Assembly (NCBI RefSeq): GCF_042477335.2 | Contig: NC_091255.1 | Coordinates: forward strand, 33,768,501 to 33,832,500 | From: Ovis canadensis | Taxonomy: Eukaryota; Chordata; Mammalia; Artiodactyla; Bovidae | Length of the DNA: 64,000 nucleotides | Reading direction: 5' to 3' | In this document: positions 27,141 through 62,619 of the stretch, in pieces | Layout of the letters: every line of letters starts with the position of its first letter | Position numbering within the stretch: position 1 is the first letter of the stretch | Translations under genes and position numbers: made by a program | The notes under the pieces: generated by a model | Database searches by the model: none | What the model was told of the DNA's origin: nothing | What the model saw: only the letters and a program-made list of their open reading frames with translations

Positions 27141-29384
27141 CTGAAAGAGAAGAACAGTCATATCTTAACCCACGGTTACAAAAATGTTATTAGGAAGGGA
27201 ATAAGTTGTTATGCTTTGAATGACACAAGTCTTGGAACAGAGAAATTAGGCCATACAGAAACTAGCAACTAGTTGTAACAAGTTTTATGAAATAGTTAAA
27301 GATATTTACCTTAAGGTGAATCATTAAAATATTTGGTTCTGTGGACTAAAACAGGAGACAGCAAGCCCAATTTCACCCCTTCCCCTTAACTCTAATTGAG
27401 AATCCCAGGGCCATGACTAGAGGAGGTACCCTTTCATTTCCTCCAGGATTATGAATTAAGTTGAAAACAACTATGGATGCCACTCTTTTAAGGAATTATA
27501 TGTGAATCAGCTTTCTTCAGCAGTGCTTACAGAATTTTAAAATAAGAGTGGCTTTTAAAAGGCACGAAAAAAACCCAAGTATTTGCATTATTAGTACATT
27601 ATTGGGATTGGCCATAGGGATGAACGGCCAAGTTGTCTGTTTTGAATGCATTGTGGAGAGCAGTATGATGTTTGGGATGAAATGTGAAGATCTTTTCAAA
27701 TTTGAATCCAGAACAAGTGAAGAGTTTTCATAGGGTGAATTGCATCTCCAAAACAGTTAAAAAGGATACTCACTGTTCCATACTTAAGTAGTGTAGGCAC
27801 TGCAGTTAATTTCAGGTTTTTCCTGAAGTCATTATTTGGATCTTTCCAACTATTTCAAAAAGAGAAAGTGATCATGAAAAAGATTTACTTGGTTTCTTAA
27901 AGTCTGCTTGATATTTGATACATGCCCACTTTTAGCCTTTAGTAATCATTTTTGTTGTAAACATTTAAAAAACCTTGAGGTCTATGACCTATTCTCCTGT
28001 GCAAAATTTCATTTAAGTGAATATATACTTTAAGTGAATATATTTCATTTAAGTGAATATATTTTAAGATAAAATAAATGTAAAGACAATTAAGTTCTGA
28101 ACTAATATCAGGCCAAATTATTGAATTGCCCTTACCTAATACAAATGGCTGAACATTCAAAAATTTAATTTGTATTTAATATCTTTTACTTGCTTGACTT
28201 ATCCATCACTGAACCTTAGAACTCAGAAGCTGAATCACAAAGGCCCTTCTTGCCTGTCTGCAAAAGTCTAGTGCATGTCTGAGAAATAGAGTACCCATTG
28301 CCACTTACTAAGGTTTTTCTCCTACTTGGCAGTAGATGAACACACATCCTTCACCAACATGCTTCAGCCCCTCTCGTACGACGGGTTCAGCTTTTTAAAA
28401 AGTTGATAAAAATGAAAGTAATTACACACCAACTCTACAATCAGGCGCTGACAAACGGCGTCCCTCTCCTTTCCCCTCAGTCTTGGTAAGTACTTAGACT
28501 ACCGTGCAGTTAACTGAGATTAACACAAGTTAGGTGGTTTTTTGTTTTTTTTTTTTTTTTTCTGATTTGAGAAATCAGAAATCCTTTAAGGGTAAGGTCC
28601 GGCTCTCAGTCCTGATTTGTCCTCAGGCCACAGCACCCAGCACAATCAAAGACACATCTTTGCTGAATTACGGAAAGGAGACCATCTCACGTGTCCTGCA
28701 AGACACAAAGTTCTAAAGGACTGCTGCTGCTAAGTCGCTTCAGTCGTGTCCGACTCTGTGCGACCCCACAGATGGCAGCCCACCAGGCTCCCCCGTGCCT
28801 CGGATTCTCCAGGCAAGAACACTGGAGTGGGTTGCTATGTCCTTCTCCAATGCATGAAAGTGAAAAGTGAAAGTGAAGTCGCTCAGTCGTGTCCGACCCT
28901 CAGCGACCCCATGGACTGTAGACTTCCAGGCTGCTTCATCCATGGGATTTTCCAGGCAAGAGTACTGGAGTGGGGTGCCTTTGCCTTCTCCGTCTAAAGG
29001 ACTAGATTCCAAGATTACTTGGATAGAAAGATTAGAAGAGCACTTTTGGTGGGGCGGGAAGGTCTTAATACATTGAGGAGAGTCGGAAAACGATAGGAAA
29101 AGACAAGAGGAAAGCTCAAATCGCCCTGCGGGACTCCGGGAGCAAGACCCTCCGCTTCCTCTCCACCCGGCTATCTGGCTATAACCTCGGCCTTCCAGCC
29201 ACTTCCTCTGGGCTGCTGCCTCCCGAATCCTGGCCTCACCCTGCACGCAGTCTGGGCACCAGCTTTTCCCTTCGGCGTCCTTAGAACCAGAAAAGTAGGC
29301 GAAAATGGTCTTGCCACTGTGCTGTTCCACCACCTGCATGAACTCCTCATAGCCGGACACGCTCACCTCTTCGTAGCTGGCCAT
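27072..29384 (-). CDS. TXNDC17: Thioredoxin domain-containing protein 17 (TRP14)
   Basis: Four coding exons on the minus strand: 29384-29240, 28390-28309, 27849-27774 and 27140-27072. All introns have GT/AG ends. The sum is 372 bases, giving 123 residues, the human length. The thioredoxin-like active site is WCPDC at residues 42-46, the signature that separates TRP14 from classical thioredoxin (WCGPC). The conserved cis-proline segment '[11 protein letters not shown]' lies in exon 3, and the protein ends SED. TXNDC17 is a cytosolic oxidoreductase recharged by thioredoxin reductase 1; it reduces cystine and selected disulfides and dampens TNF-NF-kB signalling. It shares a GC-box promoter with KIAA0753 and converges with MED31. 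Intron 1 has taken up a Bov-A2 SINE. Confidence 0.98.
27774..27849 (-). CDS. TXNDC17: TXNDC17 coding exon 3
   Basis: Completes Tyr75, then [20 protein letters not shown] and LKYGT. Donor GTGAGT. Contains the thioredoxin-fold cis-Pro. Confidence 0.97.
28309..28390 (-). CDS. TXNDC17: TXNDC17 coding exon 2
   Basis: Encodes [20 protein letters not shown] and QVGEKP between split codons. Donor GTAAGT. Confidence 0.97.
28712..29003 (-). mobile_element. Bov-A2 SINE in TXNDC17 intron 1, 11 bp TSD
   Basis: Two reversed BovA monomers with a GCT-repeat tail at the left ('ctgctgctgctaagtcgctt'). The perfect duplication 'tctaaaggact' flanks it at 28712-28722 and 28993-29003. Confidence 0.93.
29240..29384 (-). 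CDS. TXNDC17: TXNDC17 coding exon 1 with active site
   Basis: Starts [20 protein letters not shown] and ends [10 protein letters not shown] plus one base. Donor GTGAGG on the minus strand at 29239. Confidence 0.97.
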
Positions 29385-29830
29385 CGGGAAAGCGTGCCTT
29401 GGAACACAGGCGATGTCTCGGGTTCCGCCACTGCGGGGCGGGGCAAAGCAGCTTCTGAATGGGCGGGGCGTGGGGCGGGCCCTGGGGGAGCCCGCCCGGC
29501 TCTGCGGTGCTATAGGAGCCTCTGAGGGCCAAAACGCCTCCGCACAGTCTTATCTGCTCTGGTTTGTCAGATCTTTCTGCGCCGGTGGCACCCCGAAACC
29601 CCGGCTTCTGCCCCAGTCTGGTCCCGGTTCCAGCCCCATATGCAGTGGCTGCAAAACCTGCCGCGGCGTGGTCCCTGAGCCCCTTGGTGGCCCCGGAGTT
29701 TTAACGGCTCCCAAGTTGCCCTGGGCCTGTTGCCATGGCGACTGGGCCAGCGGCCGGAAGCGGGGCCTAGTCGCGACCCACCCCCTGCCGGCTTCCTGGT
29801 AGCCGCGACGCTCCCCAGGCCAGGTGGGCT
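29385..29830. promoter_or_regulatory. Bidirectional GC-box promoter of TXNDC17 and KIAA0753
   Basis: GC- and CpG-rich with at least three GC boxes (29434-29444, 29461-29470, 29471-29480) and no obvious TATA box. TXNDC17 leaves to the left. KIAA0753, whose first coding exon is at 35290, must start to the right. Its non-coding exon 1 probably lies in this stretch, but its ends cannot be fixed from the sequence. Confidence 0.7.
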
Positions 29831-30129
29831 CCAGCTAGAGCTGGGGGGATTCTGGGAAGCTGCGTTAGGAGTCAGGGATCTGAGGGAGAGGAGACTTTGA
29901 CCCGGGGCGGATCCTGCCGCTTGTCGGCACTAGTTACCTTTTCTTCTGCCGAGACGTTAGTTGGGGGCGGGCGTCCGGGACTGGGCGGGAGTAGGGGGCT
30001 GGGAGGGAAGAAGGCTTCGAGGGCCAGAGCTGAGTGTGTGAGAGCGCGTGCGGAGCCGCCCTCGGAGCTGGTGCTGAGACAGAAAGTGCCCCGGGGCTGT
30101 GTTGGGAAGGCGGGAGTCATCCTGGAGCG

Positions 30130-33100
30130 ATGAGTGGGGCGGCTGGCCAAGGGGCCTTGCCCGGGTCGAGCGTGCGCGAGCTCGCGGCAGAGAGACCGGG
30201 CCTATGCGTGGGACCCAGCCGGTCCGGACGCGGAGTCCGGCGGCCTTGGGGGAAGAGATGGGGTGCAGGGTTGTTCCGAGGCCGTGGAACTAGGCGCCGG
30301 GCGAGGTGTTCCGTGCGGGAGACGCGCTGCGTGAGTGCGGACAGGCTGCCGAACCGTCGGCGGCCATGGGGGAGAAGACAAGCAGCGGGAAGAGCCCAGG
30401 CCTCGGGGGAAAACGAGGCTGCGGGAACACCTGGCTCTGCAGTCTCGATGGAGGCTGCACGAGACCGTGGGACCGTGTGGGTAAACGGGGCTGTGGGGGA
30501 ACCGCAGGTGGTGGGGCCTGTCGGCTCTGTATGGGTGACTGGCACTGGGGAGGAGGAGACGGTTTACAGGAGTCCCCCGGGCTGTGAGAGAAAAGGTCGT
30601 CCGGGATCCATGGGGCATGGGAGCATTCTGGAACTGTGGTTGAAGGTGCAGGCCATGAGGGCAGCTTCAGGAGGTGGGCAACGAAGCAGAGTCGAGCTTC
30701 ATCCTGTGCCCGCAGGAGAGGGGCCGATTGAAAGAGGGGTTCCTGGCCGGGCTTCGTGGGTAGAGACCAGCCGTGAAGGTCTCACTGGACCCTGGGTGAA
30801 AGGACAGGCTGGGGCAGCCCCCCGGGGCCGGGGACTATCCATCCCTCCGGGCGCAGGGGCAGGCTGTGAGAGGGCCATGGGCTGCTGTGGGCAGGGCCAG
30901 GCTGTGAGGATGCCACCTGTGGCTGTGCCTGGAACTCTGGAGGCAAGTTCCGGGATTGCCCCACACCTGCCTGGGAGGGGACAAGCTGTGGGGGTGCCTG
31001 GGCCCTTGGAGGGGATTGGCTATGGGGTTGCCCCCCGCTCTTCAGTAAAAGGACTGACTGTGGGGGTGTCCGGGGCCACAGGGTGGCCTGAGGCTGTGGA
31101 GGTACCCAGAGCTGTGGCGAGAGAGCTCTGCTGTGGAGGGGCTCCGGATCCTTGGGGGAGACAGCGGGCAGCACAGATGCCCGGGGCTGTGGCACAGGAG
31201 GTGATCTGTGGGCAAACCCCAGGCTTCTGGGGGAGAGGGCAGACCGCAGCTGTGCACAGAGCGGCCCAAGGGGACACCCCCTCTGTGGATGCCCCAGCTG
31301 TGTGGTGGAGGAGACAAGCTGTTGGGGAGACAGGCCCCGGGACACTTCCTGGCCTGTGGGGCACCAGACAGCCTGTAGAGGTGCCTTGTGCGATTGAAGA
31401 GGGAGTGAGATGTGGGGGTGACCCATGCTGCAGGGAAAGGGGACAGGCCGGGTGGGCAGAGACAGGCTCTGGGGGCAACTCAGGGTCCTGGGAAGCTGCC
31501 CAGACTGTGGGCTGGGCAATGTGTGGTCCCCAGGAGCAGGAGGCAGGCCCTGGCAGTGTTCCAGGCCACTGGGGTATAGGACAGGCTACAGGGCTACCTT
31601 GGGCTCCCGGGACAGAGACAGGGTGTGGGTGTGTCCTGGGTCTGTGGGGAACACAGCAGCCATTGGGGGTGTCCCAGGCTGTGGGATTATCGGCGGCCAG
31701 AGGAGTGCAGACCAGCTGCTGCTGTGTCCCGGGCCTGTGGGCTAGACAGCAGGCTCTGGGGGTGCCTCTGGCTGAGGCAGTGCCGGCCGTGGTCAGAGAG
31801 GAGACCTACGGTGGGAATGTCTTGGGTCTCCTGGACAGGAGGCAGGCTCTAGGGGAGCAGGAGGCTGTAGTGCCCGCCGCTGTAGGGGGTCCTGGATCTG
31901 TGTGTCAGGAGACTGGCTGTGGGGACTCTTCCTGTCTCTGCCTGAGGAGACAGGCTGTAGGGCTGTCTGAGCTTGTGAGGGTACCAGAGACAGCTGGGGT
32001 GTCCAGCTACAGGTGTGCCCTAGCTCCGTGTGTGCCAAGTTCCGGGAGTGAAGCTGCCAGGGTGCCTGCCGCTGTGTGGGTGTCTGACTCTGTGGGTCAG
32101 GAAGGCAGCTCCAGGGAGGACTGGAACCTGTGGGCAGGGCTTCATCCTGCCGGGAGACCCACGGCTTCAGGGGTACCCATGGCTCCCCAGGAGCTGTGGT
32201 TGGCGGGGGAGGATGCTGGCTCTTGGGGAAGGAGACAGAGTGCCAGGGTGCCCATGGCTGCTGAGGTGCCCCGGGCTCCTGGGGTGTGTGGTTCCCTGGG
32301 GGTGGAGACTGGCCCTGGAGATTTCTCGCACTTGCCAGGGAGGAGACAGACGGCAGGAGTTTCTCTGACTGCAGGGGTGTTTGCAGATGCGGGAGTGCCC
32401 GTGGCCCTCAGGGCGCCTCGGCCTGTGCAGGAGTTGGCTGGTTCTGGAGGTGTCTCAGGCTTGTGTGGGGAGAGAGAGACAGTGTGGGGACCTATGGCTG
32501 CCGTGGATCCCACCAGAATGGGGATGCCCACCACTGCCAGAGTGCCTGGGCCCATGAATGAAGAGATGGGGCCTGGGGGCATCTCAGGCTTGGCGGGAGG
32601 GAGACAGTCTCGGGGAGCATGTGTGGCCATGGGGCTGCACACAGCCATGGGGATGCCAGGGCCTGTGGGGGAGGAGATGCTCTCTGGGCATTTCTCAAGC
32701 TTATCAGGAAGTAGACAGACTGCTGAGGTGCCGGTGGCGGCTGCCAGCATTTCCCTGACAGTGGGGGTGCCCCCAGCTGCCAGGGCCCCTGGACCGCTAG
32801 TGGGCGATGTTGTCTCTGGGGATGGCTCAGGTGAATGGGGAAGGAGACCCTTGACTGAGGTGCCTGTGGCTGCCAGGGCTGCAGGACTTGTGGACAGGGA
32901 GACTGGCTCTGATGGCGTTGCAGACCCATGGAGGAGACCTGATGGAGCCGTCCGTGAGGCTGCGAGCGTGCCTCTGTCTTTGGGGGTGCTTGCAGCTGTA
33001 GGAGTTCCCATGGCAGGGCCCAGGCCTGCGGTGGTGTGGGTGACTGGGCCTGCAGGAGAAGAACCCAGGGCAGCTGTTTCTGACCTCCTGGGGGTGAGGA

Positions 33101-33489
33101 GACAGTTCACAGAGGGCCCCAGGGCTCCCCCCACAGGGGAGATCGGAGGTAGAAATGTCCTGGGGCTGGCCGGGAGGAGCCAGCCAGTGGGGGTGTCTTA
33201 CACCTGTGGGCACGGGACCAGGTTATGGAGGTGCCTGAGGTCAGCGGGGGAAGAACTGGACTATGAGAACATGCCAGGAGTGTCCAGAACAGGTGCAACT
33301 GTGGGGGAGAACGAAGCTGAGGAGGTGCCCCCAATTTCACAGGAGGAGACAGGCAGCGGCCTCATCAGAGATCACGCACAGCAGGGTGGGAGGAGACAGG
33401 CTGGAGGAGAGTCTGCCGTCAGGGCGGGGGAAAGCAATCTGGGAGACAGTTTTGAGGGGGAGGACAGATTGAGGGGGGCGTTCCACTAA
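30130..33489 (+). CDS. Giant unrecognised ORF (1,119 codons) in a diverged tandem repeat
   Basis: One open frame runs from the first ATG (30130, G at -3) to TAA (33487-33489). The frame is closed upstream by TGA at 30031-30033. I do not recognise the protein. It is rich in Gly, Val, Pro, Ala, Glu and Arg with few Lys, and has no signal peptide or membrane helix that I can see. From about residue 90 onward it is built of about 27 diverged units marked by a (W/G)-x-R-R-Q-(A/T)-x-x-V-P core. The units are often preceded by E-E-T-G-x-G and followed by a variable number of V-P-x-A pieces, with mean spacing near 39 residues (about 118 bases). It lies between the shared promoter and KIAA0753 exon 2, on the KIAA0753 strand. 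It may be a real protein, part of an alternative KIAA0753 transcript, or non-coding minisatellite DNA whose units lack stops in this frame. I assign no function. Confidence 0.4.
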   Translation: MSGAAGQGALPGSSVRELAAERPGLCVGPSRSGRGVRRPWGKRWGAGLFRGRGTRRRARCSVRETRCVSADRLPNRRRPWGRRQAAGRAQASGENEAAGTPGSAVSMEAARDRGTVWVNGAVGEPQVVGPVGSVWVTGTGEEETVYRSPPGCERKGRPGSMGHGSILELWLKVQAMRAASGGGQRSRVELHPVPAGEGPIERGVPGRASWVETSREGLTGPWVKGQAGAAPRGRGLSIPPGAGAGCERAMGCCGQGQAVRMPPVAVPGTLEASSGIAPHLPGRGQAVGVPGPLEGIGYGVAPRSSVKGLTVGVSGATGWPEAVEVPRAVARELCCGGAPDPWGRQRAAQMPGAVAQEVICGQTPGFWGRGQTAAVHRAAQGDTPSVDAPAVWWRRQAVGETGPGTLPGLWGTRQPVEVPCAIEEGVRCGGDPCCRERGQAGWAETGSGGNSGSWEAAQTVGWAMCGPQEQEAGPGSVPGHWGIGQATGLPWAPGTETGCGCVLGLWGTQQPLGVSQAVGLSAARGVQTSCCCVPGLWARQQALGVPLAEAVPAVVREETYGGNVLGLLDRRQALGEQEAVVPAAVGGPGSVCQETGCGDSSCLCLRRQAVGLSELVRVPETAGVSSYRCALAPCVPSSGSEAARVPAAVWVSDSVGQEGSSREDWNLWAGLHPAGRPTASGVPMAPQELWLAGEDAGSWGRRQSARVPMAAEVPRAPGVCGSLGVETGPGDFSHLPGRRQTAGVSLTAGVFADAGVPVALRAPRPVQELAGSGGVSGLCGERETVWGPMAAVDPTRMGMPTTARVPGPMNEEMGPGGISGLAGGRQSRGACVAMGLHTAMGMPGPVGEEMLSGHFSSLSGSRQTAEVPVAAASISLTVGVPPAARAPGPLVGDVVSGDGSGEWGRRPLTEVPVAARAAGLVDRETGSDGVADPWRRPDGAVREAASVPLSLGVLAAVGVPMAGPRPAVVWVTGPAGEEPRAAVSDLLGVRRQFTEGPRAPPTGEIGGRNVLGLAGRSQPVGVSYTCGHGTRLWRCLRSAGEELDYENMPGVSRTGATVGENEAEEVPPISQEETGSGLIRDHAQQGGRRQAGGESAVRAGESNLGDSFEGEDRLRGAFH
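30400..33480 (+). repeat. G-rich degenerate minisatellite
   Basis: Recurring DNA words such as 'gagacaggctgtgggg' and 'gggggtgcc' build irregular units of roughly 75-130 bases. The units are so diverged that no two look identical. G clearly exceeds C on the plus strand. Confidence 0.75.
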
Positions 33490-34787
33490 TAAGGATGGTG
33501 TTGGGGGATCCTGGGGCTCTTGGGGAGGGATCAGGTTGGGGAGAGATTTGTCCTGGGGTGTAGGGATGTCTCGGGATGGAGGAGAGAGGCTTTGTGGAGA
33601 CACCTCACCACATATGGGATGGCAAATGGGGAGGTTTCCCGCATGGGAAAGGGACAGGTTGCAAGGAGAGGGATGTCCTCTCCTTTGTATGGGAACTTTG
33701 TGTGGGGGAAAGGCTTGGGGGTCGGTGTCCCTGGACTTTGTGTGTGTATGTGTTTGTGTGTATGTGTAGCACCACTTGAGGTATTCTGGAACTGTGGGAT
33801 CACCTAGTTTTTTCCTGTTGGAGAATGGACCCATAGGCCTTTGGCATCCAGCCAGGGAGTACTGACATCGTAAAAGTCCCAGCTGCCGAGAGCCCGCCTC
33901 TGCAGGCTCCTTCCTTCTGCGGCTCCAGCCCCTGAACTGTGTTGACGTCAGGCCATTGGGATGGCCTCACTTGTGTTCCTCATCCCGTCTTCGCTTTTGA
34001 TCGTATCTCTACAGCCTTAGAAACAAGGAATCTTTATATTCCTACTCGTGTATCAGCTCTAAGCAAATCTAGTCTACAGTCCTTGGCTTTATTCAGAAGT
34101 TTGGGAAATCCCGAGTTTTCCGGTTCTTATTGAATTCTTTAAGAGGACAAGCTCTCCTCATACCTTTAACACTGGTCAACTTATGGAAAATCTGCTTAAT
34201 TCGACAAATGTTGAGTTGAATTGTCTACTGTGCTCAAAACCTGTGTTGGGGGAAATCTCAGAGAAGCACATGACAAAGTCCTTCCCCTCAAAGAACCTTG
34301 TCTAGCTGGGAAGCTGAGACAGATACGTGTGAAATAGGTAAATAACAACACAAGCAAGTGGGTGAGTACAGGGGGCGTGGTGTCTATAAGGAGGCATTCA
34401 GAACAGGGAGAGCCCCTCCCATGTGGTTTACAAAACACTTTCCTATCTTTAGACAGCTGTAGGGTGGGGGGGAGTTAGGGTGAACCTGAAGAGGTACAGA
34501 GATCATTCCGCTAGTTCCTGGCCATTTCTGGCATCTGTCTAGGTATTCTGATGCCACTGGTTTATTTAGAGTCATTCAGAGTTAGATCCTTTTGAGCTAC
34601 CTAGAAGAGTGAAGTGTACTGCTTTTTGATTAGAATTTATTAACGTAGGCTGTATATCCATAAAACTTCCTGCTGGAAAGTGCTTGTTACCATAGAAGAG
34701 CTCTGTTTTTGGAATAACTTCTTATTGGCAACCCCTGAGATGTGAAATTTGGAATGAGAAGAACTCAAGAAGTAGTCATTAGGCAAG
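33490..34787 (+). other. KIAA0753 intron 1 remainder, nothing coding recognised
   Basis: 33490-33720 stays G-rich and then gives way to a short (TG)n-like run at 33738-33768. About 34240-34330 resembles an old L2/MIR-type repeat. No splice-bounded exon is evident. Confidence 0.45.
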
Positions 34788-35005
34788 TTGTTGTTTAGTT
34801 GCTCAGTCATGTCTGGGACTCTGCGACCCTGTGGATTGTAACCTGCCAGGTCCCTCTGTTGGTGGGATTTCCCAGGCAAGAATACCTGAGTAGGTTGCCA
34901 TTTCCTTCTCCGTCGGATCTTCTCGACTCAGGAATTGAAGTACAGTTCCTGTGTCTTCTGCATTGGCAGGCAGATACTTTACCACTGAGCCATGAGGAAT
35001 GCCCA
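34788..35005 (-). mobile_element. Bov-tA SINE in KIAA0753 intron 1
   Basis: Reversed copy from 'gttgttgtttagttgctcag' to 'ccactgagccatgaggaatg'. It is the last repeat before coding exon 2, about 215 bases upstream of the predicted acceptor. Confidence 0.9.
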
Positions 35006-35289
35006 TGCCATTAGGCTGGTGTGTCCTCTGTACTCATGGAACGTAGACTTTCAACAGTGTAGTTGCTTTAGTATATGAAAGAAACCAGCAACACAAGCAT
35101 TCGCTCTGTAGTGTGAGGTTGCCATGGACTACTAGAATACTCTTACATGAGCATAGCATTGTGTTTTACTTATTCTTTCACTTTGAAAAGATTGGTCTAA
35201 AAGTGCTTTCTTTTATGTCAGGTAGTGATTTTAGGGGAAAACTTGGCCAATGACTGAGCTTTCACTATCCGTCTACACTGTCTGACACC

Positions 35290-62619
<27,330 letters not shown>

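Follow-up and report, generated by a model that had tools for sequence, protein, structure and literature searches.

In Ovis canadensis, the putative first intron of KIAA0753 contains a plus-strand open reading frame (ORF) that continues for 1,119 codons across an array of diverged tandem repeats. We analyzed it within a 64,000-nucleotide (nt) window of the genome (contig NC_091255.1, positions 33,768,501–33,832,500; all coordinates below are positions in this window) and propose, with a probability of roughly 60% and reasoning from the sequence, that the interval is genuine coding sequence for a disordered repeat protein born of a 38-nt minisatellite. The frame is assumed to be unannotated. 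The fuller account, in which a mammalian intron gave rise to a protein of ~1,000 aa by way of the 38-nt minisatellite, with pairs of monomers read in two alternating frames and selection keeping them open since, is put forward more tentatively, at a little less than even odds.

The frame runs from its first ATG at 30130 to a stop at 33487–33489, exactly as the earlier note had described it, and is also open upstream to 30034, giving 1,151 codons if counted from a GTG. Frames 1 and 2, the remaining plus frames (the open one being frame 0), are closed far more often than the one stop in roughly 100 codons that had been reported, with 32 and 29 stops per 1,150 codons, or one every 36–40 codons. 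Among 6,000 Markov control sequences (1,000 for each of orders 1–6, trained on 29900–33700) the longest open stretch in the plus frames is 631 codons, and frame 0 has no stops where ~25 are expected from its own near-stop codons and the rate of the other two plus frames. This last expectation is optimistic because the repeat copies are related, and since they share ancestry we set the independent-stop probability aside and rely on the tree simulation described below, which is the safer test. The two windows with the strongest three-base periodicity in the 64 kb both fall inside the ORF, with the repeats contributing to the periodicity. The frame is uninterrupted beyond chance, as expected of protein-coding sequence.

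Most of the ORF is occupied by 26 diverged repeat units, cut on a protein motif, and 22 of them have in common a 28-codon block with the protein consensus GPVGEETGSGDVPGLWGRRQAVGVPVAA. The start-to-start spacing of the units is exactly 19+6n codons in 15 of 25 cases, and the protein units vary largely by 6-aa steps. At the DNA level the unit consensus matches itself at 34 of 48 positions (0.71) when shifted by 38 nt, compared with at most 0.39 at the other shifts of 30–45 nt and 0.60 for the best among 2,000 shuffles, and lag 38 ranks second in the raw sequence, between 93 and 75, for lags up to 399. Two copies of one 38-nt monomer thus make up the unit consensus of this GC-rich, decayed minisatellite, and because 38 is of the form 3n+2 each half of the protein unit translates the same monomer DNA in a different frame. 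A scan of 29850–34000 with the dimer consensus gives 53 places with at least 40 of 86 matches (33 in phase 0, 11 in phase 2 and 9 in phase 1), and a 38-nt monomer scan gives 33 places, split 22, 10 and 1 over the three phases. Towards the right end of the array, dimer matches at 33124, 33162, 33200 and 33238 (49, 55, 42 and 47 of 86, where the 99.5th percentile of all positions is 49) follow one another in 38-nt steps and cover each of the three phases with no stop codon; only two of these four places pass the threshold of the separate monomer scan. Although the monomer is 38 nt long, the spacings between similar stretches mostly keep to multiples of three. This is true of 27 of 28 pairs of similar 60-nt stretches (at least 38 matches), of 27 of 29 pairs over 29850–33900, and of 24/35, 32/42, 12/14, 16/19 and 30/34 pairs at five looser or shorter settings. 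On the antisense strand there is an open frame of 330 aa within the array (32142–33134), and the rate of stops per 1000 weighted near-stops is 21 in one of the antisense frames, compared with 42 and 64 in the other two.

Having many diverged units permits a test for selection from one genome alone. We used Nei-Gojobori counts of nonsynonymous and synonymous change (dN/dS), judged against simulation. For pairs chosen by nucleotide similarity, which overlap and for which only spacings divisible by three were taken, dN/dS is 0.66–0.67 in frame 0 (54 and 44 pairs at two settings), 0.87–0.88 in frame 1, 1.00–1.04 in frame 2, and 0.74–1.10 on the antisense strand. When the substitutions are moved at random among sites of the same base dN/dS becomes 0.88–0.89, and a value as low as that of frame 0 is reached in none of 100 relocations at either setting.

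The neutral tree simulation was applied to 22 of the 26 units, the remaining four (u03, u08, u22 and u25) having been excluded beforehand for want of a gap-free fit, and used the 60 nearest of 231 unit pairs, with some neighbouring blocks overlapping by up to 10 codons. It omits indels and CpG context, and its branch scale of 0.75 was set to match the observed divergence (0.539 simulated, 0.542 observed). The observed dN/dS of 0.577 compares with 0.93 ± 0.12 simulated and the absence of frame-0 stops with 11.2 ± 3.9 simulated, neither of which is equalled in 1000 simulations, and the third-position excess is reached by 9 of 1000; a column permutation test for the latter gives p 0.018. For the other frames the simulation yields 21 stops in frame 1 and 15 in frame 2, where the blocks have 14 and 13 (90 and 399 of 1000 simulations reach values as low); dN/dS in frame 1 is 0.84 compared with 0.98 simulated (130 of 1000 as low), and in frame 2 it is 1.07 compared with 0.84 (27 of 1000 as high). 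With kappa 4, the frame-0 counts for dN/dS, stops and third position are 0, 0 and 6 of 1000. Cutting by a protein motif could in itself lower dN/dS, and we therefore added masked runs: dropping the four anchor codons gives 2, 0 and 37 of 1000 for the same three measures, and dropping all ten consensus codons gives 19 of 1000 for dN/dS and 13 of 1000 for stops. Purifying selection at the codon level is seen in frame 0 between internal repeat units only and, being measured between internal copies, reflects historical constraint. The diverged units and this constraint together support the repeat-born protein that the earlier note had entertained.

A codon-composition score, trained on 30910–33400 with the test window left out, is positive and highest for frame 0 in windows from 30334 to 33633 apart from 31534–31833, and is negative in every frame before 30334. 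It favours frame 0 at 30334–30933, nearly all of which is outside the training stretch. In 150-nt windows the signal is gone at 33400–33549, the window containing the stop; the windows before 33400 are flattered by a training stretch that extends to 33400. The codon signal spans ~30.35 kb to just before the stop, and ATG 30448 is the most likely start; alternatives are ATG 30130, with G at -3, and ATG 30877 in a strong context (GCCATGG). Beyond the double stop TAATAA, frame 0 is open for 104 more codons (33493–33807), with a chance of ~1% for one given frame; the remaining frames are also fairly open here, and the reopening may be meaningless or a lost C-terminus.

Whether counted from ATG 30130 or 30448, the predicted protein is 17% Gly, 12% Ala, 10% Val and 9% Pro, with 0.4% Lys. 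Between 30877 and 33486 there is one lysine codon in 870 in frame 0, compared with 15 and 10 in the other plus frames. Searches with the ORF protein identify no family in Pfam (E up to 10, and again up to 1) and no relative in NCBIfam or PDB. A unit profile has four PDB matches, all to antibody heavy chains (best E 0.49) and taken as chance; Rfam at gathering thresholds gives nothing over 28500–36000, and a viral-contig scan with the frame from 30850 on gives three pattern matches, none confirmed. In the 2.97-Gb genome no second copy was found of either the 1,119-aa protein (best 41 of 87 candidates scored) or the unit consensus (one candidate), in a search that scored only the best candidates and skipped very common words. 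As for a repeat-born gene, the array has no detectable homologue elsewhere in its own genome, Pfam or PDB. An elastin- or collagen-like repeat protein family was also considered and rejected, there being no profile match in Pfam. An AlphaFold2 model of a four-unit, 167-aa stretch has a mean pLDDT (predicted local distance difference test) of 45.6 and no helix of 4 or strand of 3 residues. Its input consisted of the query and five other stretches (six of the seven cut), one of which overlaps the query and is partly identical, and this six-row model gives a weak indication that the product may be disordered.

Several observations weigh against a coding role. In the window 31534–31833 the codon score of frame 2 is slightly above that of frame 0 (1.3 and 0.7), and a weak frame-0 score is back at 33652–33801, 3' of the stop; one antisense frame has a dN/dS of 0.74–0.78, little above frame 0; and the third-position excess loses significance when all ten consensus codons are masked (104 of 1000). 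The CpG in arginine codons (positions 1–2) is in the most depleted phase, 0.16 compared with 0.23 and 0.32, the reverse of what strong arginine constraint would leave, and GC content at third codon positions (0.61) is below that at first (0.70) and second (0.64). Neither AATAAA nor ATTAAA is found between 33490 and 35300, which contains only one CATAAA and one AAGAAA variant, and a transcript end is not evident downstream of the ORF; and the protein is without a Pfam, NCBIfam or PDB relative and without a confident fold. The lack of an evident gene end, and a CpG decay that ignores codon meaning, are among the features that would suit a neutral origin, in which a 38-nt repeat, rich in G and poor in stops whatever the phase, was amplified by chance as 75-nt dimers, stayed open by luck, and was noticed as the extreme case of many loci. 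Two of the three frames of the consensus are open, the sequence is G-skewed and TA is low (0.33 of expectation), all of which would help. Such luck has, however, to account for 22 blocks with a mean pairwise mismatch of 54% that have no stop in frame 0 and 14 and 13 in the other frames, and for dN/dS and third-position tests that do not depend on how the locus was picked and point to frame 0. The neutral run of stop-free repeat units allowed for in the earlier note thus survives as an explanation that we consider rather unlikely, disfavoured by the absent stops and by the dN/dS between diverged units.

A gene that was coding and constrained for most of its history, but is now untranslated in this lineage and still unbroken, would satisfy the same tests, since they measure past constraint between units, and the 104-codon reopening could be its lost C-terminus, although such openness is not confined to frame 0 there. 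More than 1,000 codons without a stop and a codon signal that stops where the stop codon lies make a recent death improbable, and we rank it clearly below the neutral origin. The ORF had also been suggested to be a first-exon extension of a KIAA0753 isoform. The KIAA0753 frame in exon 2 has a stop codon upstream of ATG 35290, which precludes the ORF from extending the N-terminus through that exon, and the MNR (moonraker) match of exon 3 in Pfam is absent from the ORF. A bicistronic transcript, or one skipping exon 2, is possible. In the latter a donor inside the ORF could be joined to exon 3 to give a fused protein, and a donor-like site at 33094 is in phase 0, as is the predicted exon 2/3 junction after 31 whole codons. 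This donor scores only 8.0, but the matrix used also misses the predicted exon 2 donor, so that weak donor scores mean little; as fusion via exon 2 is precluded by the in-frame stop and the codon signal runs beyond 33094 to ~33450, such an isoform seems very improbable.

Table 1. Coordinates of the ORF, the repeat array and neighbouring features in the window.
Feature	Coordinates	Strand	Basis or remark
Open reading frame, 1,119 aa from first ATG	30130..33489	+	Frame without stop; others 32 and 29
Most likely coding part, 1,013 aa from ATG 30448	30448..33486	+	Codon score; choice of start predicted
Array of 26 diverged repeat units	30841..33423	+	Units cut on protein motif
Dimer-consensus matches at 33124, 33162, 33200, 33238	33124..33275	+	Phases 0, 2, 1, 0
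CpG island between TXNDC17 and array	29251..30750	.	CpG observed/expected 0.51–0.94, 250-bp bins
Predicted KIAA0753 intron 1, encloses ORF	29824..35221	+	Donor CAG/GTGGGC at 29824 (slash marks the exon–intron boundary), acceptor before 35222
KIAA0753 exon 2, ATG 35290, 31 codons	35222..35382	+	In-frame stop 5' of ATG; end at 35382 predicted

The two conserved genes on either side of the ORF are those that the earlier note had named: TXNDC17 exon 1 matches PDB 1wou (E 1.5e-23), and KIAA0753 exon 3 matches Pfam MNR (E 2.3e-107). The start codon of TXNDC17 is at 29384 on the minus strand, 746 bp from the ORF start and in agreement with the 0.75 kb given before. KIAA0753 splice sites were predicted with splice matrices applied to the sequence alone (Table 1); the 31-codon length of exon 2 fits the entry of exon 3 into the MNR profile at position 31. 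The gene arrangement suggests that the CpG island may act as a shared promoter. Across the array (30751–33500) CpG observed/expected falls to 0.16–0.33 at 58–68% GC, and GC skew is +0.23 to +0.43 over ~4 kb downstream of the island (29750–33999), G-skewed sequence in this position being a known setting for R-loops. On the coding reading that we prefer, a transcript would start in the CpG island and run in the KIAA0753 direction, with the 5' part of intron 1 retained as a long first exon. It would either be spliced to exon 2, with a donor near 34362, or end at a non-canonical poly(A) site, carrying the ORF upstream of, or instead of, KIAA0753. Its product would be flexible, 1,013 to 1,119 aa long, poor in lysine and rich in Gly, Ala, Val and Pro, and from this composition it might act by multivalent weak binding of a disordered repeat chain. 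KIAA0753 is named in sheep in a source (PMC12523943) whose available text does not mention the frame, and among the matches listed in a literature search on the locus or such a frame there is nothing on it.

The mean mismatch between units of 0.54 corresponds to ~0.96 substitutions per site, and mammalian sequences change at 2–3e-9 substitutions per site and year. At that rate the separation of the units would predate the ruminants by a wide margin, although this age could be considerably reduced by CpG decay and repeat mutation. The depth of divergence suggests an origin older than the ruminant-specific one considered in the earlier note and, if so, traces of the array are expected in pig, whale or more distant species.

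The codfish antifreeze glycoprotein genes (PMC8622921) are an example of de novo genes that grew out of short tandem repeats. The comparison is one of mechanism, the locus here being known from sequence alone. In codfish, too, a repeat array provides most of the new protein at a site with no older gene, but its unit is 9 nt and in frame, unlike the 38-nt monomer, whose length does not divide by three and which is translated in two frames. A closer parallel is the proposal, attributed to Ohno, that early coding sequences were oligomer repeats with a length that is not a multiple of three. The monomer here has such a length, 3n+2, and is passed without a stop in more than one frame; it departs from that proposal in that pairing of the monomers brings most of the array back into frame, which makes the dimer the period of the polypeptide. 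In composition and low-confidence unstructured model the predicted product resembles the VGVPx repeats of elastin in being Gly/Val/Pro/Ala-rich with short steps, but there is no Pfam match and the likeness is compositional only. The XLalphas/ALEX exon of GNAS (PMC2671723) offers a further comparison. It is also long, GC-rich, internally repeated, near a CpG island and upstream of a conserved gene, but XLalphas splices in frame to the downstream gene, whereas the ORF has its own stop and KIAA0753 exon 2 an upstream one. If translated, the ORF would be a large protein apparently overlooked in the first intron of a ciliopathy gene and would open to testing the old idea that repeats of non-multiple-of-three length, being open in several frames, are good raw material for proteins; if the proposed origin is true, it would be a present-day example of Ohno's oligomer-repeat route.

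Two repeat-related segments lie outside the array. At 28740–29240 on the minus strand the TXNDC17 exon 1 frame reads through into what we take to be ruminant-SINE-like (short interspersed nuclear element) sequence, and at 37718–38263, also on the minus strand, there is a 181-codon open fragment that presumably resembles the reverse transcriptase of a BovB-type long interspersed nuclear element (LINE).

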